A stretch of DNA of 64,000 nt. Source: Thereva unica (taxonomy: Eukaryota; Arthropoda; Insecta; Diptera; Therevidae). How positions within the stretch are numbered: position 1 is the first letter of the stretch; each line of letters opens with the position of its first letter. The position numbers and the translations under genes were made by a program. This document shows, one piece after another, positions 8,864 to 56,952 of the stretch. The notes beneath the pieces were generated by a model. It saw only the letters and a program-made list of their open reading frames with translations, made no database searches and was not told the DNA's origin. The DNA is taken from positions 81,766,070 through 81,830,069 of the forward strand of contig OX465282.1 in assembly GCA_949987705.1 (NCBI GenBank), written 5' to 3'.

Positions 8864-9087
8864 ACTAGCTGGGACCCGGTGCGCCTACGCTGCACCCATA
8901 AGTCAATAGTAAACAATAAAAACCATCCATTGACTTAATATTTTTCGAGATATGAATTTTACACAGATGAAATGCCTCAAAGAACATGGGTCTTGCGTCG
9001 GCTGCCATGAATCGGTATATTGAGTCTACTGCATTGCTTATTGTATTCTACTTATCATACCCTTTAATTTGATACCCATGTTGAGGG

Positions 9088-23116: not shown

Positions 23117-23213
23117 GAAACTTTAATTGTCATGTTCGTCCAAAGTGTCGTCTTTTAATGTCATGTAGTTAAAAGCAAACAATTAAAATCAAAATATTTC
23201 AGATGCGAAGAAC

Positions 23214-23741: not shown

Positions 23742-25047
23742 AAGAAGAAAATCAGAAACATGAATTTTCAAATAATAACGCAATACCTGGTGCCTGGGTG
23801 TTACACAGGCACGGTCCAAAAATAATCTCTGAAATAAAAATTGAATTCGATTAAATTGAAGAGGCAAATGTCAACAAAAACAACAAAAATAACAATGAAA
23901 TAATTAACTTAAATAAACATGAATATCACATAAAAACATACATAAATGAAGTAAAATTATCACGAACTACAAACATATTAATTGTTGTTTAGGAATTTTC
24001 ACGAAAAAGTAATTTAATGAATTAAAATTAGGTTTTTAGTGAAACATAACCCCAAATTTAAAAACATAAAAGGTTACATGAAAACAAAAAATAAAGCATG
24101 CAAAATCACACTAAACACAATCAAACACTATAAACCTGTATTTCACTCACCTGAATGTAGTAAATTCGCACTAATAGTTAGCACAGGTGCCACACACACT
24201 CGCGACATGAATTTTCGAACCCGGGCAAACTTTGACGTCTCACGACGTTTGAGGTGTCAAAACGATATAAAATTTTCCGGCGAATTCAGCGGTGATGCCA
24301 GAATTAAAGCAAATCACCTGGAAAATTAATTATCAGCGAAAATCTATATTTTCCTTTATGGCAATGTGCGAGAAAGAGAAATTTATCGCAAAAGGGACAA
24401 CAATAATATTACCAATTTTTGGAAATTCATCCCAGTTTTTCCAGGGAAATTGGAATTTCTCTAATGGATGCCTTTTTGCTTATAAAAAGCTGCAGCACCC
24501 AGCGACTTGTCTTTTTAGTTTGTTTGAATAATCATAGTGAGTTGGAAGATCTAGTGAAGTGAGTGACCAAATTCAAGGCAGGATCCACGTGAGGAAATAA
24601 GGAAATTATAGAAAGGTATTCAAGATTATAAAAGGTGAAAACATGCAAATCATTGCATCGCATCAATCACGTTAATATTGTTTTCAGCCATCAACGCCGG
24701 TACATTGAGCGATATAAAAGGAGAAGAAATTTTCAAAGTGCAAACATTAAAGTGAATGTGTTTTGTAATTTTAAGGAATTTAATTGTTAAAGTTATTATA
24801 TAAAAATAAAAAAAAATGAAATTGGAACAATAAATTTTAAACGTGCATGTATTGTGGAGAATTGTTTAAATTGAAATTGAAATAATAAATTATAAAGGTG
24901 CATTTATTGTGGAGAAATTTTTTTTATAAATAAATATCCAGTGGAGTGAGGAATTTTGTCTTTTTACTCAAACTCATTGTAAATTCGAATTTTGTCTTTG
25001 AATCACGGAACAAATATAAATTGTCGTGCATTTTTTATACCGCTACA
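23718..25047 (+). repeat. BEL 3' LTR, copy 1
   Basis: A polypurine tract (TGGGGGGAGGA, 23707-23717) precedes TGTTCAACC. The LTR has a TATAAAAAG box at 24481 and ends near ATACCGCTACA (about 25047; the exact end is ambiguous by a few bases). Several AATAAA-like signals lie in 24800-24990. About 1.33 kb; ORFs inside are chance. Confidence 0.7.
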
Positions 25048-25140
25048 CCAGGCCACCTATCGTACACACACATACTTACGTCCAATTTTTTGCTTAAAAT
25101 GCTCCTGGGACCTTGAAAGTTGAAAATACGTCGAAAATTT

Positions 25141-25973
25141 CAGCTTACCATCATGTAGAACCAATGTGTCCAAACCCTTCACGAATACAGGAGTTGACTA
25201 CGCCGGTCCGTTTAACATCAAGACATCGAAACTCCGTAATGCCAAGGTATCAAAGGGATACATCTGCATTTTTGTATGCATGACAACGAAGGCGATTCAC
25301 ATTGAGCTGGCATCAGACCTAACATCAGAAGCCTTTGTTGCGGCATTCAAGCGATTTATTGCCATGTACCGACGTTTATTCCGATTGTGGCACCAACTTC
25401 GTTGGAGGACGAAAGCTATTGGAGAAAGAACTACAACAAGCAATTAAGGAATCCAGTCCAGCAGTTGGTCAATATTTATCAAATTTGGCAATAAACTGGC
25501 ACTTTAATCCACCAGCAGCCCCGCACTTTGGAGGTCTCTGGGAGGCAGGGGTCAAGTCAATTAAGTACCACATCAAAAGAACAATGGGAAATGCAGTCAA
25601 CACCTTCGAAGAATTTACGACCATCCTTACACAAATTGAAGCCTGCCTCAACTCCAGACCAATGTGTTATGTACCAAATACCACTGAGGATCCACTCATC
25701 TTAACTCCTGGTCACTTCCTAGTTGGTCAGTCACTAACAATTCTACCAGAGTCAGATGCAGGCACCGCCTCATTGAAACAACGATGGCAACATACGCGAA
25801 ACCAGACGAAACATTTTTGGGACAAGTGGTCGAAGGATTATTTAAACCAACTCCAACAACGTCCGAAGTGGCAACAGCAACAAGGTAACATCCAGCCCGG
25901 ACAAGTTGTTCTGTTGAAAGGCGACACCACTCCACCTACAGCTTGGCCACTTGGAGTAGTTGAAGAAGTCTAC
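25141..25973 (+). pseudogene. BEL integrase fragment, copy 2
   Basis: Second copy of the integrase core and C-terminus: DYAGPF, frameshift near 25374, SDCGTNFVGG and PHFGGLWEAGVKS. It is disrupted by M2 insertion within GVVEEVY; the last 35 residues resume at 37102-37207. Confidence 0.9.
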
Positions 25974-26691
25974 TGTAATTACTTTCCTTGCGTACGTATA
26001 AAATAAAAACTCTTCGTGATTTAATTTTTCTTTGCTTTCTTTATTTGTGTATTGTTTAAGTTCTCCACCAAGGCGTTCAAGCAGTAATGCTGCAAGCTAT
26101 GCCTTCTGGGAGTAATTTAAATTACAAGTTGAGTACTCCTTAGTTCTTACTGACTATTACTGATTCTTACTGACTATTACTTAATCCTACTCTCCATATT
26201 TATAATGAAATTTTTCTACACTAACTTCCCATGGTGGGGCAAATACCTATTTTCTTTCTTATACTTCCCCAGCACTCATTCCATGATCTTTCTCAATGCA
26301 TTTCTTTTGCTTATCAATGCATTTCATTCATGAACTCACTTTCCTAATTTTCGCCCATAAAATTTCCGGGCCTTGCTCAACCATAAAATTATTATTTAAT
26401 CCGAGCACTTTTGGGTCACGCGTGCATGCATTGGCTTTGGTTTCATTATGAGTGAGTGCCCTCCACTGCCGCTTGCATTTAGGTTTGTTTACCCTTTCAT
26501 GCGGTGATCGTGGCGGTTGCATTCTTATTTTCATGAATGGGTCATTCTTTTATGTGTCTGAGTTCGAGTTTGAATTTATTACATAAGCAATCGAATGCAT
26601 TTTGTGGAAACAATTTTGTTGCATCATTGTGCTACTTTGTTGTTTCTTATATCATTAGAATTGTGAGAATTATTTGCATAATCTCACTACA
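25974..26691 (-). repeat. M2 3' LTR
   Basis: Plus strand TGTAATTAC...CTCACTACA; a TATA-like TATAAATATGGAG on the minus strand near 26200. Preceded in minus orientation by the polypurine tract GATGGGGGA (26692-26700). Confidence 0.95.
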
Positions 26692-26798
26692 TCCCCCATC
26701 GGGTGAAAAGAAAGATTTTCGGTGCTTCTTTTGGAGCGAAAATCTTTCGTCATTCTTATGTCGTATTCTTTATTCTATTTTTATGTATTTCCTTAATT

Positions 26799-27845
26799 TT
26801 ATTTCCTAATTTTTATCTTAACATTAACTCCTTGCTTTTCTACTATCTCATACGGTCCTTCATATGGTGACTCATGTTTCTTTTTATTTCCGACTTTCAA
26901 CCAAACTTTATCCCCCACATTTGCTGTTATCGGTTTTATTTTCCTGTCATATGATATCTTTCTTTTTTCTTTGGCTATTTCTAATAATTTTTGTGCTGTT
27001 TGATGTGCGTTTTGTAGTCTCCATTTTAATTCACTCGCATAATTTTCGATATTATAAATTGGTTTTGGTCTTCTTTCGTATCTGGTTAGGTAGACTTACT
27101 ATTTTTCCATACACTAATTCATGTGGTGAGAATCCTGTATCTGTATGTGGTGTAATGTTGTAACAAAATGTGTAGTATTGGATCCATTCATCCCAATCTC
27201 GACCTTGGCTAAATGACAATAGATATTCATTTAGTGTTCTGTGATTGCGTTCTATTGAGCCCAGAGTTTCATGATGATATGTGTAGAGTTAACATGTTTT
27301 ATTTCTAGTGTTTCGCAAATTTGTTTGAATGTTTCGTTCATGAATTCTGTGCCCATATCCGTTTTCATGGTTTTGAATGTCCCAAATTTTAATATTACAT
27401 TTTCTATTAAAGCTTTAGCAATTGTAGTTGCTTCTTTGTTCTCCATTGGTATGGCTATTACATACTTGGTTAAGTCACATTGTATGGTCAAGATGTATCT
27501 GTAGTGTTTTGCTTGACGTAGTGGTCCTACCGTGTCCATAGATAGTACCTCAAAACTTGTGGTTGGGGTTTCCGTTATCTGTAGCTTCTCTTTGGTGTGT
27601 CTTACTTGCTTGTTTCTTTGGCATTCCATACATCCATTAATGTGATTTTTAACCATTCTATTCATATTTTTCCAGCAATATCTCTGTTTTATTTTTCCTA
27701 TTGTCCTCTTCGCTCCTGAGTGTCCTCCTGTCGTCGGTGCGTTATGAAATTTTTCTATTATTTCCAGTTTTTCGCTTTCTTCTTTCACTTTAATCGGTGG
27801 TGTATATAATATTATTCGTAAATTGCTTTTCATTTTTTGATGCAT
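26799..27845 (-). pseudogene. M2 integrase
   Basis: The minus strand from 27845 shows a zinc-binding region (GGHSGAKRTI, CMECQRNKQ), first Asp in LSMDTVGPL, second Asp in KTDMGTEF, then a frameshift near 27280. The other frame continues GSIERNHRTLNEYL (catalytic Glu context) to the C-terminal domain NVGDKVWLKVG and ends KIKIRK at 26799. This is a complete integrase complement broken by one frameshift. It is followed by about 100 bp to the polypurine tract; no chromodomain or env is seen. Confidence 0.85.
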
Positions 27846-28322
27846 TTATTGTATAGCTTTATAAATTCTTCTTTCTCTATGTATTTAAATATTTCATCGT
27901 TATTTGCCATGGCTAATTTATTTATCTTATACTTTCGCGCGCATTGCATTAGCTTCTCCAGCAGTAACTCCCAGTTTGCCTGTTAGATTATCGCTAAGCT
28001 TCTTGTATTTTTTACTTTTGTACTCTTTCATCAGCTTCTCCGGTAGTAACTCCCAGTTTGCTACTAGATTATCACCAAGATGTATCGTACATTCATTTCT
28101 TCCTTTATTATAATTTATTTTCGCATGCTCTATTTCATCTTTTTCTTGCATCAATTTATCTATTTTCTTCATATTTTGTTTTGTGTAATTGTTCTGCCCT
28201 ATGTAATTATTCTGCCCCCGGGGTAGCTCTGTTTTCAGTTTCGTAACGTTCCTGGTTTCCGAAATTGATGTACATTCCCATATGTAGAGATGGCCTGTCT
28301 CTTCTGGTTGCTGTACACTCTT
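27846..28322 (-). pseudogene. M2 pol linker between RNase H and integrase
   Basis: The pol frame continues after a TAA just beyond VMEK (about 28323), through a charged KKIDKLMQEKDEIEH segment, to a second break near 27925. A tandem duplication of about 81 bp (27 codons: GKLGVTAGEAN versus ANWELLPEKLM regions, units near 27950 and 28031) lies inside. Without the stop it would fuse RNase H to integrase. Confidence 0.6.
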
Positions 28323-30512
28323 TTATTTTTCCATAACTTGTTTTTTCATAGCTCTTGTGACTACTTTAATTTCTGCCTCTACTGGAATCATTGCTTTTAG
28401 CATCTCTGAATCTAATTTTATTCTTGACAGTGCGTCTGCATTTGTATTTAACGATCCTTGCTTATATATTATTTCAAAGTCATATTCACTAAGTTCTAGT
28501 CTCACTCTGGTCATTTTTGATGAAGGGTTTTTATGTGTAAATAGGCTTACTAATGGCCTATGATCCGTGACTACTATGAATTTTCTACCATACAGATATG
28601 GTCTAAAGTATTTTATCGCCCAATGTATCCCAAGTAGTTCCTTCTCAATGATTGGCTTATTCAGCTCATGCTTGTCTAATGTCCGACTTGCATATGAGAT
28701 AGGGAGGTCTTTACCAATTTCTCCTTGTGAAAGCACTGCACCAAGTGCAAAATTTGAAGCATCTGTTGTCAATACAAATGGTTTGTTGAAATCTGGATAC
28801 TGTAATATTGGTGGGTTAATTAGTTTATTCTTTAACTCTTCAAATGCTTTTTCACATTCTACAGTCCATTCGAAAGTAACGTCCTTTTTCGTTAGCGCAT
28901 TCAAAGGTTTTGCAATTGCTGCAAAGTTCGGTATAAAGCGTCTGTAATAATTACAGAAAGCTGTAAATCGTTTGACCTCTTTTGAATTCTTTGGTACAGG
29001 ATATTTCGTTATTATTTCGTACTTTTTAGGATCTGTTTTCACACCTTCATTTGTTATTAGATGTCCTAAATATACTACTTCTGTACGTAGAAAGTTGCAT
29101 TTCTGTGGATTGAGCTTTAGGTTGTATTCCCTTAATCTGTCGAATGTTCGTCTTAGACTTTTGTTGTGATGTTCAAGATTTCGTCCGAAAATAATTATAT
29201 CGTCGACATATAAAAATGTTTCAGCGTCTAAACCTGCTAGTGCTACTGATAGCATGCGCTGAAAACTATTCGTGGATATCTTTAATCCGAATGGCAGTCT
29301 TTTGAATTGGTAGTGTCCTTTGCCAGTCGAAAAAGCTGTCGCTGGTCTCGACTTTGGGTGTAGCTCTATTTGATGAAATGAACTCGTTAAATCTAGAATC
29401 GAAAAATATTTTGCTTTCCCAAGATTGTCTAAGATATCTTCTAATCTTGTTAAAGGAAATTTGTCATCCATGACTTTTTTATTTAGTTGACGAAAATCTA
29501 CAACCATTCTCCATTTTTTATCACCATTTTCACTCTTTTTTGGTACTACTAATAAGGGTGAATTGTATGGGCTTACGGATGGTTCTATGATGTCATCTTT
29601 GATTAATTTTTCCACTTGGTTGTTTATTTCTTCAGTTTGGGATTGCGGTGACCTGTAGTTTTTGATGTACACTGGGTTTTTATCCGTCATTCTTATTTTT
29701 TGTCTATAGAAATTGTTCACGGTTAATTGATCATTGTCTAAATGAAATATGTCTGCATATTCCATACAAATATTTGTTATTGTATCCTTTGCTTTGGTGT
29801 CTAAGTTATTAATTTGTAGTTCCCTCAGCAATCTTTTTACTCTATTTTGATTTGTTTTTTCACTGCTTCTATCCACATTTAGCACATAATAATTTGTTAG
29901 AGGCTTAATCTTTAGCTTTGGAAGTTTGATTTCCACTTCTTTTTCATGAGTGTTTAATAGTCTTATGTGTGCTATCCCTTTACATGGTATTAAAGAGTTA
30001 GCCACAAAGATCCCATCTTCTAATTCTTGGCTTAGTACTATGCTGTCCTCTTTGATTTGTACATCCAAAGCGTGTATCATTTGCGATCTTGCTGGTATAT
30101 TAACAGTTTCGTATAGTGTACAAATTGGTAAAATGAGATCGACTTGCCTCAGTGCTATTGTTAAAGTAAAAATTTCGTAGTCAAGCTTACATTTGTATTT
30201 ATATAGGAAATCTTTTCCTAGAATGGCTTCCGTTCCAATAGCGAAGTCATCTGGTACTATATGCAATTTATGCTTAATGTTTTCTCCTTCAATCCTTAAA
30301 TAAGCATTCGTTGTTCCTAGAGTGTATATATCGCTCTCTGTGACGCCTGTTATTTTACAAATTTCTTCCTCATTAATCAGAGTATCTATGTAACTTTTCT
30401 TTATTACCGATATGTCCGCACCTGTATCTATTAAGAATCTTACTTGCTCCTTTTTATCTGCTATATGTATTCTTATATAGTTATCTAAATCCTTAACGTT
30501 GAATGAATACAC
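28323..30512 (-). CDS. pol: M2 Pol: protease, reverse transcriptase, RNase H
   Basis: A 729-aa open frame. Protease LIDTGADISVI (DTG at 29-31) with ILGKDF at 97-102; RT with WRMVVDFRQLN (about 335-344), first Asp at 374 (SILDLTSSFH) and YVDD at 435-438; RNase H with TTDAS (Asp584), Glu624 (EKELLG) and TDHRPL (Asp650). These are the replication enzymes of Ty3/gypsy elements, acting in the particle. The frame begins with a non-ATG codon just after the gag stop (30548), so expression probably uses frameshifting or fusion with Gag. It ends at an in-frame TAA that removes integrase. Confidence 0.95.
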   Translation of the reverse strand: MYSFNVKDLDNYIRIHIADKKEQVRFLIDTGADISVIKKSYIDTLINEEEICKITGVTESDIYTLGTTNAYLRIEGENIKHKLHIVPDDFAIGTEAILGKDFLYKYKCKLDYEIFTLTIALRQVDLILPICTLYETVNIPARSQMIHALDVQIKEDSIVLSQELEDGIFVANSLIPCKGIAHIRLLNTHEKEVEIKLPKLKIKPLTNYYVLNVDRSSEKTNQNRVKRLLRELQINNLDTKAKDTITNICMEYADIFHLDNDQLTVNNFYRQKIRMTDKNPVYIKNYRSPQSQTEEINNQVEKLIKDDIIEPSVSPYNSPLLVVPKKSENGDKKWRMVVDFRQLNKKVMDDKFPLTRLEDILDNLGKAKYFSILDLTSSFHQIELHPKSRPATAFSTGKGHYQFKRLPFGLKISTNSFQRMLSVALAGLDAETFLYVDDIIIFGRNLEHHNKSLRRTFDRLREYNLKLNPQKCNFLRTEVVYLGHLITNEGVKTDPKKYEIITKYPVPKNSKEVKRFTAFCNYYRRFIPNFAAIAKPLNALTKKDVTFEWTVECEKAFEELKNKLINPPILQYPDFNKPFVLTTDASNFALGAVLSQGEIGKDLPISYASRTLDKHELNKPIIEKELLGIHWAIKYFRPYLYGRKFIVVTDHRPLVSLFTHKNPSSKMTRVRLELSEYDFEIIYKQGSLNTNADALSRIKLDSEMLKAMIPVEAEIKVVTRAMKKQVMEK

Positions 30513-30547
30513 TTTTACTGTATTGGAATGCCTTTTTATAATATTAT

Positions 30548-31750
30548 TTATTGTTCGTCCTCCGACTGATGGTCTTCGGGGACGGTCCCCCCGTTTTCCG
30601 AATTTATTACGTTTATTCTCCTAGGTTGCGAATTATATCTTTTGTTTGTTCTGTTGATTTGGTTTCTATATCTAGGATTTTGTTGTCTATACACTGGTCT
30701 CCTTTCGAAATTGTTATTCGTACTTCTGTTTTGTAAATTAAATCTCTGGTTCCGTTGTTGGAATGTCCTATTGCTGTCTTCATTATACTTTCTTTGTCTA
30801 TTATTTCTAAAATCTCTCCTATAGTGAGGGCGTTGATTCCAGTTACTTCTGTTGTTAGTATTGAAGTGATACACCCTTTTTTGTGTATCATTGACAGCCT
30901 CCATTTCTGAAGCTATCTTCACTGCTGTTTCTAATTTTGCTGGCATTGCTGCAAATACAGCTGTTTTAAATGGCTCGCTTAAACCTGCTTGGAAAGCGTT
31001 AAGTCCTGCTCTGTCGTTTAGAGCCGTTATCACGTTCTTATTTTCTTCTCCTCGTTCAGCTATTTGTACTGCATTTAGTTTAGAAATGATATCTTCAATC
31101 CTTGTTGAAAACGCTTCTATTGTTTGCTCACCTTGCCTTAACTTCGTCAGATCATTCTGCAGCTTTAGTGGATTTAACCTCTTTCTAAAGTGTTTCTCTA
31201 TTAATGCCCTTAGCTCTGGTATTGATGCCGGAGTCGCATTTGCCAATTTTGTCCTAACCTTTTCTGTTATCCTGGTTTTTAATACTAGGTTGATCAGCTT
31301 TTTAATTTCTTCCGCATCTTTGAGGGTGTCTGCTATAATTTCGATTGTATTTATGAAATTATTGATTTCTTTTTCTTCTCCCCCATATGTAGTTATTAGT
31401 TTCAATGTTTGAAAAGTGTCCAGGGTTCCCATTTTATATGAATTTATTACACCACTTGTTTGTTGAATATCTAATTTCTCGTTGCTCATGCCTTCTTCTG
31501 TATTTACTATTTCTGCTGATTGATTCCTTAAATATATATTTATTTCTTCTTGTTTTAGTTTAAATTCTTTTATTTGCGACAATATATTATGCTTGAGCGC
31601 AATCTCGTTTATTTGTTTTCTTAAATCTTCTATTTCCAATTGTTTTTGTAATAGTGTGCTCGCTTGTAATTGTCTGTTCGGTGCTTTTCTAAAATTGCTT
31701 AATATTTGCTCTAGTTGCCTTACTATTTCTTGAGCACGTTGCACTGACAT
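30548..31750 (-). CDS. gag: M2 Gag
   Basis: An intact 400-aa ORF. The N-terminal LSNFRKAPNRQLQASTL block is shared with M1 and M3; the capsid-like part includes LTKLRQGEQTIEAFSTRIED; the C-terminal third is R/N/Q-rich (RRDFRNNRQR and similar) and has no CCHC knuckle, so RNA binding is presumably by basic residues, as in mdg1-type Gag. It ends just upstream of pol. Confidence 0.9.
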   Translation of the reverse strand: MSVQRAQEIVRQLEQILSNFRKAPNRQLQASTLLQKQLEIEDLRKQINEIALKHNILSQIKEFKLKQEEINIYLRNQSAEIVNTEEGMSNEKLDIQQTSGVINSYKMGTLDTFQTLKLITTYGGEEKEINNFINTIEIIADTLKDAEEIKKLINLVLKTRITEKVRTKLANATPASIPELRALIEKHFRKRLNPLKLQNDLTKLRQGEQTIEAFSTRIEDIISKLNAVQIAERGEENKNVITALNDRAGLNAFQAGLSEPFKTAVFAAMPAKLETAVKIASEMEAVNDTQKRVYHFNTNNRSNWNQRPHYRRDFRNNRQRKYNEDSNRTFQQRNQRFNLQNRSTNNNFERRPVYRQQNPRYRNQINRTNKRYNSQPRRINVINSENGGTVPEDHQSEDEQ

Positions 31751-31924
31751 ATTCTTTTTAATACTCTCTGCTATATTTTAATAGTCCATTCATTGTACTT
31801 ATGCAATCCATGATCATTACGGTTCCGAGTGCTAATATCCCTATAATTCCTATCAATACTAAAATCTGCCTTACTAAATCTACTATGATTTAAATATACT
31901 GCCTTACTAAATCTACTATGATTT
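31751..31924 (-). other. M2 leader segment between RTE insertion and gag
   Basis: Contains a direct duplication of about 36 bp (CTGCCTTACTAAATCTACTA repeated at 31868 and 31903). In one minus frame a hydrophobic run (ILVLIGIIGILALGTVMIMD) is open up to just before gag but has a stop directly upstream and no ATG before the run, so it is a possible remnant of another tiny membrane ORF, not a supported gene. Confidence 0.35.
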
Positions 31925-32028
31925 AAATATTTTGTAACTCCGCCTTCGTCTGGTCCCAAGCCCAGAGTGTGAAAGGAGGAGGGTTGTCGACCTGCCGAGT
32001 CGATCGTAAAAACTAGGCAAGAAACCGC

Positions 32029-35000
32029 ATGGATACACGAACTAACCATTCACGAAATAATGCTACTGCATCCGGGGCAGCCGATGCGCCAGCGCTGGGG
32101 ACCAGGGATGCTGGTGAGAAGTGGGTTACTGGCCGAAATAATGCTACTGCATCCGGGGCAGCCGATGCGCCAGCACTGGGGACCAGGGACGCTGGTGAGA
32201 AGTGGGTTACTGGCCGAACACCCAAATTAGTCACACCGAAAAGGGAATTAAAATTCGCTGCGTGGAATGTACGAACAGGACATCACGTTGGTCAAAAGGA
32301 AATCATAGCAATGGAATTGTTGAAATGCAAAATATCAATTGCTGCGCTATCGGAACTACGGCTTACCGGATCCGGGATATTGACAATCGTCCCGCCAACA
32401 ATCGACGAAACGATGATGCTTTACTATTCCGGTGGTGAGAAAAGAGAGGCCGGCGTCGGCTTTATGGTCGACCGACGGGCTGCCAGCAGCGTTATCGCAT
32501 TCCAACCGATATCCGAGCGTTTGGCGGTTATAACCATCAGTGGAACGATCAAGACCCATATCATATCCGTTTATGCGCCAACCGAGACCAGCACGGACAC
32601 GAACAAGGACGAATTTTACGATCATCTTCAACAGACGCTGGATATGATACCTCAAACCGAATTAATAATTCTCGCGGGGGATTTCAATGCACATTCAGGA
32701 GTAGATCGAACCGGCTGGGAAGAAACCATGGGCAAATTCGGACACGGAGTAATTAATGACAACGGCTTACGCCTGCTTTCATTCGCATCGTCAAACAACT
32801 TGATCGTTGGCAACAGCATTTTCCGCCATCCACTCAAACACCAACTCACCTGGCGAAATCCATCCGGCAAAGACTCGGCGATGTTAGACTACGTTTTGAT
32901 CAACACAAGATTCCGATCGACGCTTAAAGACGTACGCGCAATGCGTGGACCCGATTGCGGATCGGACCATTATCTTGTTCGAGCGAAATTGCAGATGCGA
33001 TTGCAAAGAGCGAAGAAAACGGAGCCACCACCAGCCAAGAAAAATTGGGCGTGCCTACGGGACCCGGCCATCGGGCGAGAGTTTCAAATGGCATTATCCA
33101 ACAAATTCGCGGCGCTCGCAATACCGGACGATATCGATGTAGAAGAAAGGCAATTGTCGGAGTCTATTGTGGAGTGTGCAATGGAGTTGTGTCCAACTAT
33201 CCGTAAACGGACGCAGCCATGGATCTCGGACAGCTGTCTGGACCTCGTCGATCAGCGGAAGCGCATGAAACACGTCGACTTTGAGGAATACCGAAGATTG
33301 AACAAAGAAGTTCGGCAGAAAATGAAATTGGAACGAGAAGCGTACTGGAATAACGTTGCGGCCGACATGGAAAAAGCGGCGTCGAGGCACGAGTACCGGA
33401 CGCTGTACCAGACAATCCGCCGGTTAGGCGGCAAAACAACATCAACAAACGACAACATCAAAAAATCGGATGGAACTTTTGTGACTTCTGCCCATGAACG
33501 CCTGGAGCGGTGGAGAGCATTCTTCCACCAGCTGTATAACCACGATCCGCCGCAAGGTCCAGCACCCGAACCACCGATTATCGAACAGCCGATGAATCAG
33601 TTTCTCGATACCGAACCAACAATTATCGAGGTGAAGACAGCAATAAAATCGCTGAAAAATGGAAAAGCGCCGGGAATAGACCAAGTAACCGCCGAGATGA
33701 TCAAAGCTGGAGGTGATGTCTTATCACAACGACTTCATGTCCTCATAACACACATATGGCATTCGGATCGTGTCCCTTCGGTATGGAAGAAAGCGATCGT
33801 TGTCCCAATTTTGAAGAAAGGCGACAGTCGGGAATGCAAGAATTATCGCGGTATTAGCCTTCTTTCGATCGTCGGTAAAGTATTTACGAAAATAATACAA
33901 TCGAGGCTACAGAAACATCGAGAGCAAACGAGCCGGGAGGAACAAGCGGGATTTAGACCACATCGAGGATGCATTGATCAAATATTCGCCCTCCGTCAGT
34001 TAATGGAAGAAAGAATTCGTTGCGGCAAACGAATTGTCGTCGTTTTCATCGATTTCAAATCCGCTTTCGATTGCATCGATTGGAACAGCTTGTGGAGAGT
34101 CTTGGTAACCGAACACGTGCCATTGAGAATCATCCAACTTCTCCAAGCGTCGTACGATGGCTCAACCAGCAGCGTTCGTATTCGAAACGACTTATCCGAG
34201 GAGTTCCCGATTCAGACGGGTGTCCGACAGGGAGACGTCGCTTCGCCACTTCTCTTCAACGTTGTGATCGACGCGATTATGCGTGAAGCATTCGATGGAC
34301 GACTCGGAGTTCAATACGACGACAACAACTTCGTAACAGACTTAATGTTCGCCGACGATAGCGCTGTTTTCGCCGACACGGATGCCGAAGCAACGGACAT
34401 CTTATACGATATTTCCCGCATCGCCCAATCATACGGGTTAAAAATCAATGCGGAAAAGACCAAAGTGCTCACAACGGATGGATCAAGAGCCAGTGTTCAC
34501 CTCGATGGAACCCAAATCGAACAGGTTCCAAGGTTCAAATATTTGGGATCATTGGTTGAGGAAACGAAAGTAGCATCGACGGCCGACGTTCACAGCCGTA
34601 TCGGCCAGGCAACAGCAACATTCGCCTCGCTCAAGTGGTGCATATGGAAACGAGCAAATATCTCCATCAAAACAAAACTACGTCTTTACCGAACGTTGAT
34701 TCTTCCGATTCTTCTTTATGGATCTGAAACGTGGACACTGCTCAAACCGGACGTTAAGAAGCTCGAGGTCTTCCAAATGCGATGTTTGAGGCAGATCCTC
34801 CGTGTCTCACTCCGTGATCGCCTTCGAAACGAGGTTGTCAGACAAAGATGCGATCAGCAAACACTGATCGAAGAAGAAATGCAAAAACGTCGACTACGGT
34901 GGTTTGGACATGTTTGCCGAATGGATGATAACCGCTTGCCACGTAAACTTCTCTGGCGAGACCGTCCTGCAGACTGGAGAATACAGCGATCGGCACCGAA

Positions 35001-35181
35001 GAAAACCTGGTTGAAGAGTATCGAGGGTGACTTAAAGAATCAACGATTATCAGTTACCGAGGCTCGAGACACCGCCAAAAACCGAGAAGAATGGAAGCGA
35101 ATCGTGAATAGAGTTCGGGACCCAGCGGCACCGACAGCAGCGTATCCGTTGCGGGGACGTCCCGCTCGGACCGCCAGCTAA
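32029..35181 (+). CDS. RTE LINE endonuclease-reverse transcriptase
   Basis: An intact 1050-aa ORF. Residues 10-63 are two perfect tandem 27-aa units (NNATASGAADA...EKWVTGR). An apurinic-like endonuclease follows: WNVRTG (79-84), GDFNAH (217-222) and GSDHYLV (311-317). RT: VVFIDFKSAFD (Asp675), GVRQGDVASPLLFN and FADDSAV (FADD 774-777). The C-terminal RLRWFGHVCRMDDNRLPR block is usual for RTE. The enzyme nicks the target and primes reverse transcription from it. No stop or frameshift, so the copy may be retrotransposition-competent. Confidence 0.95.
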   Translation: MDTRTNHSRNNATASGAADAPALGTRDAGEKWVTGRNNATASGAADAPALGTRDAGEKWVTGRTPKLVTPKRELKFAAWNVRTGHHVGQKEIIAMELLKCKISIAALSELRLTGSGILTIVPPTIDETMMLYYSGGEKREAGVGFMVDRRAASSVIAFQPISERLAVITISGTIKTHIISVYAPTETSTDTNKDEFYDHLQQTLDMIPQTELIILAGDFNAHSGVDRTGWEETMGKFGHGVINDNGLRLLSFASSNNLIVGNSIFRHPLKHQLTWRNPSGKDSAMLDYVLINTRFRSTLKDVRAMRGPDCGSDHYLVRAKLQMRLQRAKKTEPPPAKKNWACLRDPAIGREFQMALSNKFAALAIPDDIDVEERQLSESIVECAMELCPTIRKRTQPWISDSCLDLVDQRKRMKHVDFEEYRRLNKEVRQKMKLEREAYWNNVAADMEKAASRHEYRTLYQTIRRLGGKTTSTNDNIKKSDGTFVTSAHERLERWRAFFHQLYNHDPPQGPAPEPPIIEQPMNQFLDTEPTIIEVKTAIKSLKNGKAPGIDQVTAEMIKAGGDVLSQRLHVLITHIWHSDRVPSVWKKAIVVPILKKGDSRECKNYRGISLLSIVGKVFTKIIQSRLQKHREQTSREEQAGFRPHRGCIDQIFALRQLMEERIRCGKRIVVVFIDFKSAFDCIDWNSLWRVLVTEHVPLRIIQLLQASYDGSTSSVRIRNDLSEEFPIQTGVRQGDVASPLLFNVVIDAIMREAFDGRLGVQYDDNNFVTDLMFADDSAVFADTDAEATDILYDISRIAQSYGLKINAEKTKVLTTDGSRASVHLDGTQIEQVPRFKYLGSLVEETKVASTADVHSRIGQATATFASLKWCIWKRANISIKTKLRLYRTLILPILLYGSETWTLLKPDVKKLEVFQMRCLRQILRVSLRDRLRNEVVRQRCDQQTLIEEEMQKRRLRWFGHVCRMDDNRLPRKLLWRDRPADWRIQRSAPKKTWLKSIEGDLKNQRLSVTEARDTAKNREEWKRIVNRVRDPAAPTAAYPLRGRPARTAS
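32056..32217 (+). repeat. 81-bp tandem duplication inside the RTE ORF
   Basis: Two units of 81 bp (32056-32136 and 32137-32217) differ at only a few bases and keep the frame, coding two 27-residue Ala/Gly-rich repeats ahead of the endonuclease. Confidence 0.95.
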
Positions 35182-35229
35182 CGGATCAAAGAAGAAGAAG
35201 AAATATTTTGTTTTTATCTAATATTCTCC

Positions 35230-35382
35230 TTACATATTATTTGGCCACCTTGTTAATATTTCTTTATTATTTTCTACAATCTTATTTATCTCACTTATTA
35301 CTTCCATAAATAATAATATACCAAAAATTATTGTTATTATGCACAATATTATAAATGACACTGTTTTTGATCTATCCTCCAT
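35230..35382 (-). CDS. M2 tiny leader membrane ORF (50 aa)
   Basis: Starts MEDRSKTVSF, has one hydrophobic segment (residues 9-26), then EVISEINKIVENNKEIL. The ISEINKI block matches ISEIKKI in the M1 ORF at 4843-4962. It lies 18 nt after the coiled-coil ORF and 19 nt before the RTE insertion site repeat. Type and role unknown. Confidence 0.5.
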   Translation of the reverse strand: MEDRSKTVSFIILCIITIIFGILLFMEVISEINKIVENNKEILTRWPNNM

Positions 35383-35400
35383 GATCCTATGTAAGCTATT

Positions 35401-35646
35401 TTAGAATTCTACTGATTTTGTTAATTCAACTGATGGCATCTTTTCTACTGTCTTGATTTTTTCTTCTAATTTTTCTATTTTTTCCTTTATTTGCTCAATT
35501 TCCTTCGCAAAACAATTCTCATATAATTCATACTCTTTTAATTCTTCTTCTAACTTCAATATAGTCTTTTCATATTTTTCTTCTAATTCAATAAATGAGA
35601 AAAAATCTTTTAGCTTATCACAAGCTTTCTCGAATTCCAAGTCCAT
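35401..35646 (-). CDS. M2 leader coiled-coil ORF (81 aa)
   Basis: Almost entirely Glu/Lys-rich heptad-like sequence (for example KLEEELKEYELYENC and IEKLEEKIKTVEK), strongly predicted by eye to be a coiled coil, with no membrane segment. It is specific to M2 in this window and may oligomerise or bind Gag. The frame is intact; low-complexity chance coding cannot be fully excluded. Confidence 0.5.
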   Translation of the reverse strand: MDLEFEKACDKLKDFFSFIELEEKYEKTILKLEEELKEYELYENCFAKEIEQIKEKIEKLEEKIKTVEKMPSVELTKSVEF

Positions 35647-35833
35647 ATTAAATTGGGCAAATAACAGAAAAGAAGAGAAAAAAAAATTTTTTTTTTTTTT
35701 TTTTTATTTTATTTTATTTTATTTATTTTTTTTTTTATTTATTTTTATTTTTATTAACTTTATTTTACTCCAAGCTTTCTATTCCTAAAAATAGTTAAAC
35801 TATTTCCCCGTAAAAAAAAATTATCATGAATGC

Positions 35834-36019
35834 CTATGCTAAATTTACACTAGTTGTTACTTGTTTTTTAAATTTCTTTTTTATGCAATTGTAGATTATA
35901 ATTACAACTAAAGCTACTACTCCTATGTATGCTACTTCTTCAATGTTTTCCTGCGTGATGCTATTCCCATTTCCGCCATTGTTGATGACTACACCATCTT
36001 TACTTTGTCCGCCACCCAT
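35834..36019 (-). CDS. M2 sORF2: myristoylation-signal membrane protein (61 aa)
   Basis: Starts MGGGQSKDG (Gly2, Ser6, Lys7 fit N-myristoylation), then VINNGGNGNSI, a membrane segment (about 29-43, VAYIGVVALVVIIIY) and a basic tail KKKFKKQ. It shares layout with M1 and M3 sORF2 but is shorter. The start lies 3 nt after the sORF1 stop (TGA AGA ATG), suiting reinitiation. M2 has no env, so a membrane role for this protein is a reasonable hypothesis. Confidence 0.7.
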   Translation of the reverse strand: MGGGQSKDGVVINNGGNGNSITQENIEEVAYIGVVALVVIIIYNCIKKKFKKQVTTSVNLA

Positions 36020-36022
36020 TCT

Positions 36023-36385
36023 TCAATTCCTGATTTTTGCGAATAATTCCTTGTTAATCTCCGCTATCTCTTCGAGAAACAATTTTCTTTGTACTGGATC
36101 CAGGGTAATTTCTAGAATCCTACGCAGCTCCCTTCTTCTTTTGCTCAGCTTTATTCTTTTTCCTCCCCGCGGGTTCCTGTTCAGGCTAGCGATGTTTGTT
36201 GGTTTTGGTGCAGCGGGTTCAGCCTTCTTGATGTTCCTCCTCCTATATTCTTCTATGGTGATCGGTCTCGGTCCAGCTGTTTGATCCTCCAATTTTTGTT
36301 GTAAAGATGAGGCTTCCTTCCTGTCTTTTTTAGCAAGTTGTCGTCCTTCCTTCAGAATTTCCTGGTCGATGGGCAGGATCGCCAT
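36023..36385 (-). CDS. M2 sORF1: basic leader protein (120 aa)
   Basis: Starts MAILPIDQ with its ATG formed by the LTR terminus A and primer-site TG. It carries TAGPRPITIEEYRRR (about 35-49) and RGGKRIKL, shared with M3, followed by a long basic helical C-terminus (SKRRRELRR). No membrane segment. It could bind RNA or Gag. It is the first ORF of the genomic RNA, so it is likely translated from the cap. Confidence 0.7.
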   Translation of the reverse strand: MAILPIDQEILKEGRQLAKKDRKEASSLQQKLEDQTAGPRPITIEEYRRRNIKKAEPAAPKPTNIASLNRNPRGGKRIKLSKRRRELRRILEITLDPVQRKLFLEEIAEINKELFAKIRN

Positions 36386-37101
36386 GTAATTACTTTCCTT
36401 GCGTACGTATAAAATAAAAACTCTTCGTGATTTAATTTTTCTTTGCTTTCTTTATTTGTGTATTGTTTAAGTTCTCCACCAAGGCGTTCAAGCAGTATGC
36501 TGCAAGCTATGCCTTCTGGGAGTAATTTAAATTACAAGTTGAGTACTCCTTAGTTCTTACTGACTATTACTGATTCTTACTGACTATTACTTAATCCTAC
36601 TCTCCATATTTATAATGAAATTTTTCTTACACTAACTTCCCATGGTGGGGCAAATACCTATTTTCTTTCTTATACTTCCCCAGCACTCATTCCATGATCT
36701 TTCTCAATGCATTTCTTTTGCTTATCAATGCATTTCATTCATGAACTCACTTTCCTAATTTTCGCCCATAAAATTTCCGGGCCTTGCTCAACCATAAAAT
36801 TATTATTTAATCCGAGCACTTTTGGGTCACGCGTGCATGCATTGGCTTTGGTTTCATTATGAGTGAGTGCCCTCCACTGCCGCTTGCATTTAGGTTTGTT
36901 TACCTTTCATGCGGTGATCGTGGCGGTTGCATTCTTATTTTCATGAATGGGTCATTCTTTTATGTGTCTGAGTTCGAGTTTGAATTTATTACATAAGCAA
37001 TCGAATGCATTTTGTGGAAACAATTTTGTTGCATCATTGTGCTACTTTGTTGTTTCTTATATCATTAGAATTGTGAGAATTATTTGCATAATCTCACTAC
37101 A
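36385..37101 (-). repeat. M2 5' LTR
   Basis: 717 bp, TGTAATTAC...CTCACTACA, nearly identical to the 3' LTR. In minus orientation its final A supplies the first base of the sORF1 start codon. Confidence 0.95.
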
Positions 37102-37832
37102 CTACCCAGGGAATGATGGTTTAATACGGGTGGCGCAAGTTCGCCCTCAGTTAGGGCTCTTTAAACGTCCAGTCACCAAACTATGTCTCTTGCCCATGCA
37201 GGCATAAGAAACTTTAATTGTCATGTTCGTCCAAAGTGTCGTCTTTTAATGTCATGTAGTTAAAAGCAAACAATTAAAATCAAAATATTTCAGATGCGAA
37301 GAACAAGGCTACTGGGACAACTGGGACAGTTACCTTTACATCGACGAAGAGGTCTCGTTATCGCCTCCTACACCGGATGGTTCGACGAGCCCTCTTAATC
37401 AAGCATTACAAGGTTCAACAACTACCCAGGAATATCCACCCGCGCTACCGGAGCAAACCAGGTACACTGTCTCAGCTGTCGAAGAACCGGCAAACATTAA
37501 TGGGAGACCCACCCACCCGACCAACATCTACGCTAAAGGAATATAAGTATAGAGAAAACAACGATTTTCAACGTTTTACCACGAGAGAAGGTGTCGACAT
37601 TTTCCTGTCCAAACAGGTATTGGACAAAATAGATTTCAAAAAAATCCAGCGACGAAAGGGAAGGGAGCAGACGATTAACCTCCCCGGCCGTTATCAAGCA
37701 AAGGTTAAAGTAAAAGCCAATGGAAACATCCTCTTTCACCACTATCGAAAAAGAGGAATCTCAAAAATACGTAACATGTTGATCGAGAACGATCAACTGG
37801 GGGGAGGATGTTCAACCGGCATCCTAAAATGA
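37102..37832 (+). pseudogene. BEL integrase tail and post-integrase ORF, copy 2
   Basis: Resumes the integrase after M2 (NDGLIRVAQVR...LCLLPMQA to 37207), then the post-integrase ORF to 37832. One substitution (CGCCCTCAG) distinguishes it from copies 1 and 3. Confidence 0.85.
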
Positions 37833-39231
37833 AAGAAGAAAATCAGAAACATGAATTTTCAAATAATAACGCAATACCTGGTGCCTGGGTGTTACACAGG
37901 CACGGTCCAAAAATAATCTCTGAAATAAAAATTGAATTCGATTAAATTGAAGAGGCAAATGTCAACAAAAACAACAAAAATAACAATGAAATAATTAACT
38001 TAAATAAACATGAATATCACATAAAAACATACATAAATGAAGTAAAATTATCACGAACTACAAACATATTAATTGTTGTTTAGGAATTTTCACGAAAAAG
38101 TAATTTAATGAATTAAAATTAGGTTTTTAGTGAAACATAACCCCAAATTTAAAAACATAAAAGGTTACATGAAAACAAAAAATAAAGCATGCAAAATCAC
38201 ACTAAACACAATCAAACACTATAAACCTGTGTTTCACTCACCTGAATGTAGTAAATTCGCACTAATAGTTAGCACAGGTGCCACACACACTCGCGACATG
38301 AATTTTCGAACCCGGGCAAACTTTGACGTCTCACGACGTTTGAGGTGTCAAAACGATATAAAATTTTCCGGCGAATTCAGCGGTGATGCCAGAATTAAAG
38401 CAAATCACCTGGAAAATTAATTATCAGCGAAAATCTATATTTTCCTTTATGGCAATGTGCGAGAAAGAGAAATTTATCGCAAAAGGGACAACAATAATAT
38501 TACCAATTTTTGGAAATTCATCCCAGTTTTTCCAGCGAAATTGGAATTTCTCTAATGGATGCCTTTTTGCTTATAAAAAGCGGCAGCACCCAGCGACTTG
38601 TCTTTTTAGTTTGTTTGAATAATCATAGTGAGTTGGAAGATCTAGTGAAGTGAGTGACCAAATTCAAGGCAGGATCCACGTGAGGAAATAAGAAAATTAT
38701 AGAAAGGTATTCAAGATTATAAAAGGTGAAAACATGCAAATCATTGCATCGCATCAATCACGTTAATATTGTTTTCAGCCATCAACGCCGGTACATTGAG
38801 CGATATAAAAGGAGAAGAAATTTTCAAAGTGCAAACATTAAAGTGAATGTGTTTTGTAATTTTAAGGAATTTAATTGTTAAAGTTATTATATAAAAATAA
38901 AAAAAAATGAAATTGGAACAATAAATTTTAAACGTGCATGTATTGTGGAGAATTGTTTAAATTGAAATTGAAATAATAAATTATAAAGGTGCATTTATTG
39001 TGGAGACATTTTTTTTATAAATAAATATCCAGTGGAGTGAGGAATTTTGTCTTTTTACTCAAACTCATTGTAAATTCGAATTTTGTCTTTGAATCACGGA
39101 ACAAATATAAATTGTCGTGCATTTTTTATACCGCTACACCAGGCCACCTATCGTACACACACATACTTACGTCCAATTTTTTGCTTAAAATGCTCCTGGG
39201 ACCTTGAAAGTTGAAAATACGTCGAAAATTT

Positions 39232-40166
39232 CAGCTTACCATCATGTAGAACCAATGTGTCCAAACCCTTCACGAATACAGGAGTTGACTACGCCGGTCC
39301 GTTTAACATCAAGACATCGAAACTCCGTAATGCCAAGGTATCAAAGGGATACATCTGCATTTTTGTATGCATGACAACGAAGGCGATTCACATTGAGCTG
39401 GCATCAGACCTAACATCAGAAGCCTTTGTTGCGGCATTCAAGCGATTTATTGCCATGTACCGACGTTTATTCCGATTGTGGCACCAACTTCGTTGGAGGA
39501 CGAAAGCTATTGGAGAAAGAACTACAACAAGCAATTAAGGAATCCAGTCCAGCAGTTGGTCAATATTTATCAAATTTGGCAATAAACTGGCACTTTAATC
39601 CACCAGCAGCCCCGCACTTTGGAGGTCTCTGGGAGGCAGGGGTCAAGTCAATTAAGTACCACATCAAAAGAACAATGGGAAATGCAGTCAACACCTTCGA
39701 AGAATTTACGACCATCCTTACACAAATTGAAGCCTGCCTCAACTCCAGACCAATGTGTTATGTACCAAATACCACTGAGGATCCACTCATCTTAACTCCT
39801 GGTCACTTCCTAGTTGGTCAGTCACTAACAATTCTACCAGAGTCAGATGCAGGCACCGCCTCATTGAAACAACGATGGCAACATACGCGAAACCAGACGA
39901 AACATTTTTGGGACAAGTGGTCGAAGGATTATTTAAACCAACTCCAACAACGTCCGAAGTGGCAACAGCAACAAGGTAACATCCAGCCCGGACAAGTTGT
40001 TCTGTTGAAAGGCGACACCACTCCACCTACAGCTTGGCCACTTGGAGTAGTTGAAGAAGTCTACCCAGGGAATGATGGTTTAATACGGGTGGCGCAAGTT
40101 CGCACTCAGTTAGGGCTCTTTAAACGTCCAGTCACCAAACTATGTCTCTTGCCCATGCAGGCATAA
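39232..40166 (+). pseudogene. BEL integrase fragment, copy 3
   Basis: Same integrase segment as copies 1 and 2, with DYAGPF, the shared frameshift near 39465, SDCGTNFVGG and PHFGGLWEAGVKS, and an open second frame of 246 codons to the natural end. It lacks the zinc domain, which lies outside the duplicated unit. Confidence 0.9.
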
Positions 40167-42190
40167 GAAACTTTAATTGTCATGTTCGTCCAAAGTGTCG
40201 TCTTTTAATGTCATGTAGTTAAAAGCAAACAATTAAAATCAAAATATTTCAGATGCGAAGAACAAGGCTACTGGGACAACTGGGACAGTTACCTTTACAT
40301 CGACGAAGAGGTCTCGTTATCGCCTCCTACACCGGATGGTTCGACGAGCCCTCTTAATCAAGCATTACAAGGTTCAACAACTACCCAGGAATATCCACCC
40401 GCGCTACCGGAGCAAACCAGGTACACTGTCTCAGCTGTCGAAGAACCGGCAAACATTAATGGGAGACCCACCCACCCGACCAACATCTACGCTAAAGGAA
40501 TATAAGTATAGAGAAAACAACGATTTTCAACGTTTTACCACGAGAGAAGGTGTCGACATTTTCCTGTCCAAACAGGTATTGGACAAAATAGATTTCAAAA
40601 AAATCCAGCGACGAAAGGGAAGGGAGCAGACGATTAACCTCCCCGGCCGTTATCAAGCAAAGGTTAAAGTAAAAGCCAATGGAAACATCCTCTTTCACCA
40701 CTATCGAAAAAGAGGAATCTCAAAAATACGTAACATGTTGATCGAGAACGATCAACTGGGGGGAGGATGTTCAACCGGCATCCTAAAATGAAAGAAGAAA
40801 ATCAGAAACATGAATTTTCAAATAATAACGCAATACCTGGTGCCTGGGTGTTACACAGGCACGGTCCAAAAATAATCTCTGAAATAAAAATTGAATTCGA
40901 TTAAATTGAAGAGGCAAATGTCAACAAAAACAACAAAAATAACAATGAAATAATTAACTTAAATAAACATGAATATCACATAAAAACATACATAAATGAA
41001 GTAAAATTATCACGAACTACAAACATATTAATTGTTGTTTAGGAATTTTCACGAAAAAGTAATTTAATGAATTAAAATTAGGTTTTTAGTGAAACATAAC
41101 CCCAAATTTAAAAACATAAAAGGTTACATGAAAACAAAAAATAAAGCATGCAAAATCACACTAAACACAATCAAACACTATAAACCTGTGTTTCACTCAC
41201 CTGAATGTAGTAAATTCGCACTAATAGTTAGCACAGGTGCCACACACACTCGCGACATGAATTTTCGAACCCGGGCAAACTTTGACGTCTCACGACGTTT
41301 GAGGTGTCAAAACGATATAAAATTTTCCGGCGAATTCAGCGGTGATGCCAGAATTAAAGCAAATCACCTGGAAAATTAATTATCAGCGAAAATCTATATT
41401 TTCCTTTATGGCAATGTGCGAGAAAGAGAAATTTATCGCAAAAGGGACAACAATAATATTACCAATTTTTGGAAATTCATCCCAGTTTTTCCAGCGAAAT
41501 TGGAATTTCTCTAATGGATGCCTTTTTGCTTATAAAAAGCGGCAGCACCCAGCGACTTGTCTTTTTAGTTTGTTTGAATAATCATAGTGAGTTGGAAGAT
41601 CTAGTGAAGTGAGTGACCAAATTCAAGGCAGGATCCACGTGAGGAAATAAGAAAATTATAGAAAGGTATTCAAGATTATAAAAGGTGAAAACATGCAAAT
41701 CATTGCATCGCATCAATCACGTTAATATTGTTTTCAGCCATCAACGCCGGTACATTGAGCGATATAAAAGGAGAAGAAATTTTCAAAGTGCAAACATTAA
41801 AGTGAATGTGTTTTGTAATTTTAAGGAATTTAATTGTTAAAGTTATTATATAAAAATAAAAAAAAATGAAATTGGAACAATAAATTTTAAACGTGCATGT
41901 ATTGTGGAGAATTGTTTAAATTGAAATTGAAATAATAAATTATAAAGGTGCATTTATTGTGGAGACATTTTTTTTATAAATAAATATCCAGTGGAGTGGG
42001 GAATTTTGTCTTTTTACTCAAACTCATTGTAAATTCGAATTTTGTCTTTGAATCACGGAACAAATATAAATTGTCGTGCATTTTTTATACCGCTACACCA
42101 GGCCACCTATCGTACACACACATACTTACGTCCAATTTTTTGCTTAAAATGCTCCTGGGACCTTGAAAGATGAAAATACGTCGAAAATTT
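39232..42190 (+). repeat. Tandem unit copy 3
   Basis: Exactly 2,959 bp: integrase end (39232-40166, open through LCLLPMQA after the shared frameshift near 39465), post-integrase ORF (40264-40791), LTR (about 40768-42097; TATA box at 41531) and flank. At 42191 it continues into the full inverted-repeat element, showing that this copy retains the original right-hand context. Confidence 0.95.
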
Positions 42191-43150
42191 CGATTTCGAT
42201 TTTCGGACCGATTACAATAACTTCCTATACTGGGAAGTTAACAAGCTCTAAAATTTAGGATGGGAGTGTCTACAGTGGCAAGGATAAGTGGATCTGGATC
42301 TACAGTGTGTGTTATGGACAACTTATTTGAAGCCCCTAGCAAAGGAGGGTTTATTAACTTCCCAGTATAGGAAGTTATTGTAATCGGTCCGAAAATCGAA
42401 ATTGAAAATTTCAACGTATTTTCATCTTTCAAGGTCCCAGGAGCATTTTAAGCAAAAAATTGGGAGGAAGTATGTGTGTGTGTGTGTATGTGCGTACGGA
42501 TGTGGTCATTTTTCCTGCACGATATCGCGCGAACCAAAACTGATATCGGCTTCGTTGAGGTGTTGTTCGAAGCGTATTAACCGAAATATGATCTGAAAAG
42601 ATTTTCATGAAAATCGGTCCAGCCGTTTTTTTGTTTGAGCGACGTAAGTGATTTTTGTGCCTGCACGATATCGCCCGAACCACGAAAGATATTGACTTAC
42701 TTGAGGTGCCGTTCGAAGCGTATTAGCGACAATATTATCTGAAAAGATTTTTATAATATTCGGTCCAGCGGTTTTTTGGTTTAAATGACTTAAGGGATTT
42801 TTGTACCTGCACGATATCGCGCGAACTATAAAAGATATCGGCTTAGTTGACGTGCCGTTCGAAGAGTATTAACCAAAATATGATCTGAAAAGATTTTCAT
42901 AAAATTCGGTCGAGCCGTTTTTTTGTTTAAGCGGCGTAAGTGATTTTTGTACCTGCACGATATGGCCCGAACCACAAAAGATGTTGACTTACTTGAGGTG
43001 CCGTTCGAAGCGTATTAGCGACAATATAATCAGAAAATATTTTTATAATATTCGGTCCAGCGGGTTTTTGGTTTAACTGACTTAAGTGATTTTTGTACCT
43101 GCACGATACCGCGCGAACTAAAAACTATATCGAATTCATTGAGGTGCCGA
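42105..43150. mobile_element. Inverted repeat plus 146-bp array element
   Basis: Arms at about 42105-42240 and 42355-42495 are inverted copies (for example TTTTTTGCTTAAAATGCTCC and CTTCCTATACTGGGAAGTTA) around a spacer of about 115 bp. Directly after come 146-bp tandem units. The left arm is the sequence in which the BEL tandem duplication broke. No coding capacity; probably a non-autonomous foldback or Helentron-like repeat. Confidence 0.7.
42514..43145 (+). repeat. 146-bp tandem array with A/B alternation
   Basis: Units begin CCTGCACGATA at 42514, 42660, 42806, 42952 and 43098 (last partial), each 146 bp apart. Odd units read GCGCGAAC, even units GCCCGAACCAC, giving a 292-bp dimer. Each carries GGTCCAGC or GGTCGAGC followed by GGGTTTTTGG/CGTTTTTTTGTT. 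Confidence 0.9.
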
Positions 43151-54884: not shown

Positions 54885-54895
54885 CCTTCCCCCTC

Positions 54896-56629: not shown

Positions 56630-56633
56630 TTAG

Positions 56634-56852: not shown

Positions 56853-56952
56853 TATTGATTTTTTTTTAAAAGAAAAAAAAATATTTTTATTGTTTAATTA
56901 TTGAAAAAAAAAAAGATTTATTAATTGTACATTATTATATTATTCCTTATAT

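Follow-up and report, generated by a model that had tools for sequence, protein, structure and literature searches.

Probable sORF2-type membrane miniproteins in the leaders of three MDG1-group-like LTR retrotransposons of Thereva unica

Transfer of env-less retrotransposons between cells has been described in Drosophila, where elements of the MDG1 group are reported to leave follicle cells and enter the oocyte (Voichek et al., 2025, preprint; PMC11952523). As described there, these elements express two small leader proteins: sORF1, which is nuclear in the case of 412, and sORF2, which is found at the plasma membrane with capsids. The plan of sORF2 resembles that of the FAST proteins, with an MGxxxS/T start in four of the six Drosophila members, and a FAST-like, Envelope-independent transfer from soma to oocyte is proposed for it (PMC11952523). 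Electron microscopy is reported to show invasive, capsid-filled protrusions with indistinguishable membranes; attempts to reproduce fusion by sORF2 in minimal cell systems did not succeed, and genetic proof that sORF2 is required is missing (PMC11952523). According to the same preprint, the Drosophila elements make a short RNA whose poly(A) site falls between the two small ORFs, low non-synonymous rates are credited to earlier work, and sORF2-like ORFs of 63-107 aa amount to 105 high-confidence consensus hits from 29 organisms. Lineages carrying env are placed in the gypsy/gypsy clade, separate from gypsy/mdg1 (EMBO J, PMC12992720).

Within the 64,000-nt stretch of the Thereva unica genome analyzed here (the window), a preliminary description had noted three ORFs of 61-72 aa with an MGxxxSK start, a polar N-terminus, a membrane span and a basic tail, and had alluded to reports of small membrane proteins in the leaders of Drosophila mdg1-clade elements, which can now be identified as the preprint of Voichek et al. 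(2025; PMC11952523). All three ORFs are present, each in a different LTR retrotransposon copy (M1, M2, and M3); the three copies lie on the minus strand and have a similar leader plan.

4469-4687, minus strand: putative sORF2 of M1, 72 aa, starting MGAQYSK
35834-36019, minus strand: putative sORF2 of M2, 61 aa, with MGGGQSK, a polar N-terminus, a span at residues 28-46 and a polybasic tail
56634-56852, minus strand: putative sORF2 of M3, 72 aa, starting MGKTQSK

Common to the three are MGxxxSK, a polar N-terminus of about 30 residues, a single membrane span and a basic tail with a charge of +5 (M2), +6 (M1), or +5 (M3). Spans were called by hydropathy only, using a 19-residue window and a cut-off of at least 1.6, and the best windows cover residues 28-46 in M2 (2.28), 31-49 in M1 (2.70) and 32-50 in M3 (2.17). 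The M1 and M3 proteins share 39 of 72 residues, as had been counted by eye (computed identity 54.167%), and the M2 protein is 31-33% identical to them across 49-54 residues (E 0.006-0.018 in a 12-protein set). Plus-strand frame 1 is interrupted by stops at all three loci. No Pfam family matched the three proteins above its curated cut-off, and a PDB profile search gave a single match, to a 28-residue NS5A peptide (E 0.52), which we take as chance.

Short ORFs located in a leader might be functionless uORFs that are open by chance, and for the M2 protein, searched by itself, the protein database gave no relative. Yet three such ORFs are observed in the window where 0.083 are expected: an MGxxx[ST] start occurs in 4 of 134 ATG ORFs of 50-120 aa, its combination with a span of at least 1.6 in 3 of 134, which are exactly the three putative sORF2, and 60 dinucleotide shuffles of the window gave a mean of 0.083 and a maximum of 2 for this combination. 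The M1 and M3 sequences also argue against idle reading frames, since pN/pS is 0.34 (pN 0.286, pS 0.849; 95% bootstrap 0.24-0.44) and the other two frames of both contain stops; this ratio comes from the one pair, in which synonymous sites are saturated and dS is not estimable, so that it is not a dN/dS proper. Differences between the two fall at codon positions 1, 2, and 3 in 31, 15, and 42 of 72 cases, respectively. Both copies have decayed since, so the selection signal is that of their ancestors. A profile of the three proteins further retrieved 17 protein relatives of 70-78 aa from 28 candidates (E 1.8e-32 to 2.5e-19), all with MGxxxS; they look like the M1/M3 type of sORF2, with identities of up to 85% to the M3 protein. 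On the chance count and the M1/M3 pN/pS of 0.34, the reading as chance uORFs was rejected, and we regard it as highly improbable. The preliminary description had named a dN/dS near 1, and absence of the ORF from further members of the same families, as points that would weigh against a conserved protein; the M1/M3 pair does not behave in the first way, as far as one saturated pair can tell, and on the second count the indication is indirect, from the 17 relatives that carry the ORF, with M2 searched alone giving none.

An alignment of 20 rows was made from the three window proteins and the 17 relatives, which are known at the protein level. Invariant in all rows are residues M1, G2, S6, G13, N17, N18, Y52, and K61, and K7 is present in 19 of 20 with R in the remaining one. 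The tyrosine after the span (column Y52) is thus found in 20/20 rows, its placement in M2 resting on a gapped alignment. Equally general are the MGxxxS/T motif, a sequence motif from which N-myristoylation is predicted, an N-terminal part of 27-34 residues with a charge of -1 to -4, and a C-terminal tail with a charge of +5 to +7; judged by charge only, the difference across the span favors an N-outside/C-inside orientation in every row. AlphaFold2 predicts a single helix at residues 15-64 of the M3 protein (mean pLDDT 72.7); pLDDT is about 95 at residues 31-50, and both termini are of low confidence. The motif G.[IV][IV]NN.{9}[EQ][NS] is present in 20/20 rows and in three six-frame segments of the window only, namely the three putative sORF2. 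As an ectodomain signature, the motif is a possible search key where, according to the preprint, direct homology searches were unproductive (PMC11952523). Support for conservation of the sORF2 plan comes independently from three elements in one window and from 17 further sequences. A scan of IMG/VR with an sORF2 alignment returned 151 stretches fitting a pattern, none of which was confirmed.

The elements that surround these ORFs differ in their state of preservation.

36385-37101, minus strand: 5' LTR of M2, 717 bp, flanked by CTAC and matching the 3' LTR at 99.58% identity
36367-36384, minus strand: presumed primer binding site (PBS) of M2, starting TGGCGATCCTGCC, called from its position after the LTR
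31936-35200, plus strand: LINE of 3265 bp inserted into the M2 leader, with sORF2 on one side and gag on the other
30548-31750, minus strand: gag of M2, 400 aa, similar to the gag pieces of M1 and M3
28323-30620, minus strand: pol frame of M2, from stop to stop, with aspartyl protease, RT, and RNase H above the Pfam cut-off
27252-27845, minus strand: integrase piece of M2, with H2C2 and rve domains
25974-26691, minus strand: 3' LTR of M2, 718 bp, flank CTAC
57294-57764, minus strand: 5' LTR of M3, flank TCAC, a 94.8% direct repeat with 54402-54884
54402-54884, minus strand: 3' LTR of M3, flank TCAC
56447-56629, minus strand: N-terminal gag piece of M3, ATG 4 nt past the sORF2 stop
4215-4403, minus strand: N-terminal gag piece of M1, ATG 65 nt past the sORF2 stop

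M2 (25974-37101) had been called the most complete of the three, which its two LTRs and CTAC flanks bear out, but a LINE has entered its leader, and its integrase piece, in the same frame as pol, is cut off by stops. The LINE is flanked on both sides by an 11-bp target duplication; near the start of its ORF lies an 85-bp tandem duplication, 97.6% identical, at 32053-32218. The gag of M2 has gag-type Pfam matches, all below cut-off. M1 and M3 are broken copies: both sORF1 and gag are broken in M1, and in M3 (54402-57764) the similarity to gag is divided between two frames. The presumed PBS of these two starts TGGCGACCGTGAC. A stretch at 10521-10667 matches part of the M3 3' LTR at 78.8% and is perhaps an old LTR fragment. 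Placing the small ORF just upstream of gag, as was done earlier, is accurate for M3 and M1; in M2 the distance from sORF2 to gag is 4083 nt, or 807 nt when the LINE and one of the two target-duplication copies are left out.

The absence of env in M2 had been noted as well, and holds as far as tested. From the end of the integrase piece (27252) to the 3' LTR (26691) there are 560 bp, and neither of the minus-strand ORFs found here (27052-27288; 26799-27095) has a Pfam match above cut-off. The ORF at 26799-27095 has a below-cut-off match (E 0.066) to the SH3 domain of Tf2-1-type polyproteins and looks like an integrase tail, which would leave 107 bp before the 3' LTR. An env gene in M2 was rejected on these distances and on the lack of an above-cut-off Pfam match, a judgement confined to M2, since M1 and M3 are too incomplete.

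In M1, M2, and M3 alike, an sORF1-like ORF lies upstream and gag downstream of sORF2, on the same strand.

36023-36385, minus strand: sORF1-like ORF of M2, 120 aa, ending 3 nt ahead of the sORF2 ATG
56953-57294, minus strand: sORF1-like ORF of M3, 113 aa, ATG at the LTR/PBS junction
5228-5503, minus strand: sORF1-like ORF of M1, from an ATG before the presumed PBS
35647-35833, minus strand: AT-rich stretch of M2, with 10 AATAAA hexamers, downstream of sORF2

The sORF1-like proteins share the segment GPR.[IL]TIEEYR.R and are related to one another (E about 4e-14 for M3/M1, 1.5e-6 for M2/M3 and about 5e-6 for M2/M1 in the 12-protein set), with no Pfam family above curated cut-off for any of them. 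The sORF1 of M1 looks broken, since similarity to the M2 protein runs on in another frame (5261-5130). In M2 (36385) and M3 (57294) the sORF1 ATG spans a junction, its first base being the final one of the 5' LTR and the other two opening the presumed PBS; M1 carries the same ATGGCGACC at 5503, where the LTR is unpaired. The gap between sORF1 and sORF2 is 3 nt in M2 and 100 nt in M3; in M1, counted from the broken sORF1 frame, it is 540 nt. The close spacing of sORF1, sORF2, and gag suggests translation by termination and reinitiation. An AT-rich stretch with AATAAA separates sORF1 from sORF2 in M1 (nine hexamers) and M3 (two), and the corresponding stretch of M2 follows sORF2, with two additional hexamers within 35214-35646. 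As sORF2 precedes the poly(A) signals in M2, the reverse of the order in M1 and M3, a short RNA of this element could carry sORF1 and sORF2 together, if the AT-rich stretch acts as in Drosophila.

The identity of the M2 protein deserves separate consideration. By score, its kinship to the M1/M3 type is weak, and M2 is the weakest of the three by sequence. It could be an MG-type membrane peptide that arose recently or by convergence and is not an orthologue of sORF2, since it precedes the poly(A)-signal region and does not adjoin gag, while the M1 and M3 ORFs follow the AT-rich region. A database search with it gave three candidates and none at E<=10. Its profile and pairwise scores also lie near those of shuffled sequences. 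Against a profile of the other 19 proteins it scores 10.4 bits, a value reached by 1 of 2000 whole shuffles, by 76 of 2000 block shuffles and, when the first seven residues are held, by 360 of 2000; the pairwise score with M1 is reached by 115 of 3000 block shuffles (475 holding the first seven residues) and that with M3 by 263 of 3000 (1448 with the same restriction). Set against this, the M2 ORF has the spaced motif of all 19 others, which shuffling of its residues 8-27 reproduces in only 39 of 200000 trials, a count that overstates the case as the motif was composed after viewing the alignment with M2 included. It also agrees with other sORF2 in MGxxxSK, in the tyrosine that follows the span, in the length of its N-terminal part and in tail charge, and an sORF1-like ORF lies directly upstream. 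We consider a convergent or new peptide unlikely, and the 61-aa ORF of M2 is very probably sORF2, given the spaced motif, sORF1 directly upstream, the same architecture and the tyrosine after the span.

Further small ORFs are found in the leaders of M1 and M2.

35401-35646, minus strand: x1 of M2, a charged ORF of 81 aa, coiled-coil-like by eye
35230-35382, minus strand: x2 of M2, 50 aa, with one strongly hydrophobic span
4843-4962, minus strand: x2 of M1, 39 aa, with one span; it lies between sORF1 and sORF2 and is a relative of x2 of M2

No relative of x1 was found within the window. The two x2 are identical at 14 of 33 aligned residues, with a score of 74 that none of 5000 shuffles preserving the hydrophobic block reach and that is the best non-self score among 1513 window segments (the next being 44). 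They lie on opposite sides of sORF2, upstream in M1 and downstream in M2, and are without the MGxxxS/T signal. In M3, a tblastn search at E<=1 returned a single match, of 18 residues (E 0.69). Codon-position differences (14/11/15 of 33) show no clear third-position excess, the x2 alignment gave two candidates and none at E<=10 in the protein database, and Pfam gave nothing above curated cut-off for x1 or either x2. Homology of x2 between M1 and M2 is thus supported and coding selection unsupported, and x2 has the look of DNA of common origin whose frame is open in M1 and M2 alike. Between the LINE and M2 gag, at 31751-31924, there is an x2-like short open frame without an upstream ATG, following a tandem duplication of about 32 bp; it scores 50 against x2 of M1 (reached by 11 of 3000 shuffles) and 41 against x2 of M2 (65 of 3000).

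It is conceivable, if doubtful, that some MDG1-like leaders encode x2, which M1 and M2 share although they have otherwise diverged, as a second small membrane protein, maybe acting with sORF2 as a two-part apparatus for capsid transfer. Should x2 prove real, a single membrane protein may not suffice for Envelope-independent transfer of MDG1-like elements. Among the titles and abstract openings listed, which for the larger result lists means 20 of 1,223 and 10 of 88 papers, we recognized no paper on a second membrane ORF like x2, and the term "third ORF" is absent from the main text of PMC11952523; in the literature covered we found no description of either x2 or the M2 layout.

The window contains several other repeats. 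A tandem array of units of about 2.96 kb, 99.7-99.9% identical, occupies 22182-25973 and 37102-42191 and is split by M2; its ORFs resemble pieces of BEL/Pao pol by eye. Another gypsy-type pol with RT and RNase H, 46-52% identical to that of M2, lies on the minus strand at 46911-48044 and 51013-51468, divided by other sequence; tblastn (E<=1) gave no sORF2 match there. A 620-bp inverted repeat, 97.7% identical (48077-48697 and 50351-50969), encloses an ORF of 170 aa that is rich in cysteine over one stretch and matches no Pfam family, and is perhaps a DNA transposon. Tandem copies of about 128 bp are present at 8991-9712, with an inverted copy near 13035-13145.

Considering leader order and protein anatomy together, the three ORFs are probably sORF2 of MDG1-group-like LTR retrotransposons with some role in transfer, the assignment to this group being drawn from features of sORF2 and the leader, with pol known from its Pfam domains alone. 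The preliminary description had gone further and suggested a FAST-like transfer device of env-less mdg1-clade elements; this is supported and agrees with the model described in the preprint (PMC11952523), and for the three copies at hand we infer a transfer role by analogy. In the mechanism that we consider most likely, sORF2 would be translated from its place after sORF1 on the genomic RNA, presumably be N-myristoylated at Gly2, and be inserted in the plasma membrane via its one helix, with the basic tail predicted to be cytosolic. There it would gather with capsids and might help to press and fuse the membrane of the somatic cell onto the oocyte, so that capsids could pass into the oocyte without Envelope.

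Whether sORF2 itself is the fusogen we judge to be about even. It might instead serve as a conserved myristoylated membrane adaptor for Gag or capsids, with host proteins carrying out fusion at microvilli; this alternative shares the sORF2 identity with the explanation given above, and the anatomy (MGxxxSK, span, basic tail) is the same in both. A position of the M3 gag ATG 4 nt past sORF2 makes co-expression with Gag plausible, and the preprint's findings that sORF2 gathers with capsids at the membrane and that fusion is not reproduced in minimal cells would fit an adaptor too (PMC11952523), but the protrusions with indistinguishable membranes in its electron micrographs argue for something beyond docking (PMC11952523). 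We see an adaptor as possible, though less likely than not.

Comparison with described systems places these proteins as follows. Like the FAST proteins of fusogenic reoviruses, as the preprint describes them, sORF2 is small, with one span, motifs in ectodomain and tail, and a basic patch beside the span; unlike them, it is encoded in a retroelement, the likeness drawn here is one of plan, and syncytium formation is not demonstrated for sORF2. The sORF2-like proteins of nackednaviruses and megriviruses have the same protein plan according to the preprint, in other genomes (PMC11952523). Closest are the sORF2 proteins of the Drosophila MDG1 group (412, Mdg1, Stalker1, Stalker2, Tabor, and Blood), with which the comparison is made by the description in the preprint (PMC11952523): shared are a length of about 70 aa, MGxxxS/T, an ectodomain of about 30 residues, one span, a polybasic tail, and the tyrosine after the span, and at the level of the element the order sORF1-sORF2-gag and no env. 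In contrast, the M2 protein, at 61 aa, is just under the 63-107 aa of the preprint hits, and its poly(A)-signal region follows sORF2, whereas in Drosophila it lies between sORF1 and sORF2 (PMC11952523). The sORF2 of these three elements are, on this comparison, new members of a class already in print for Drosophila.
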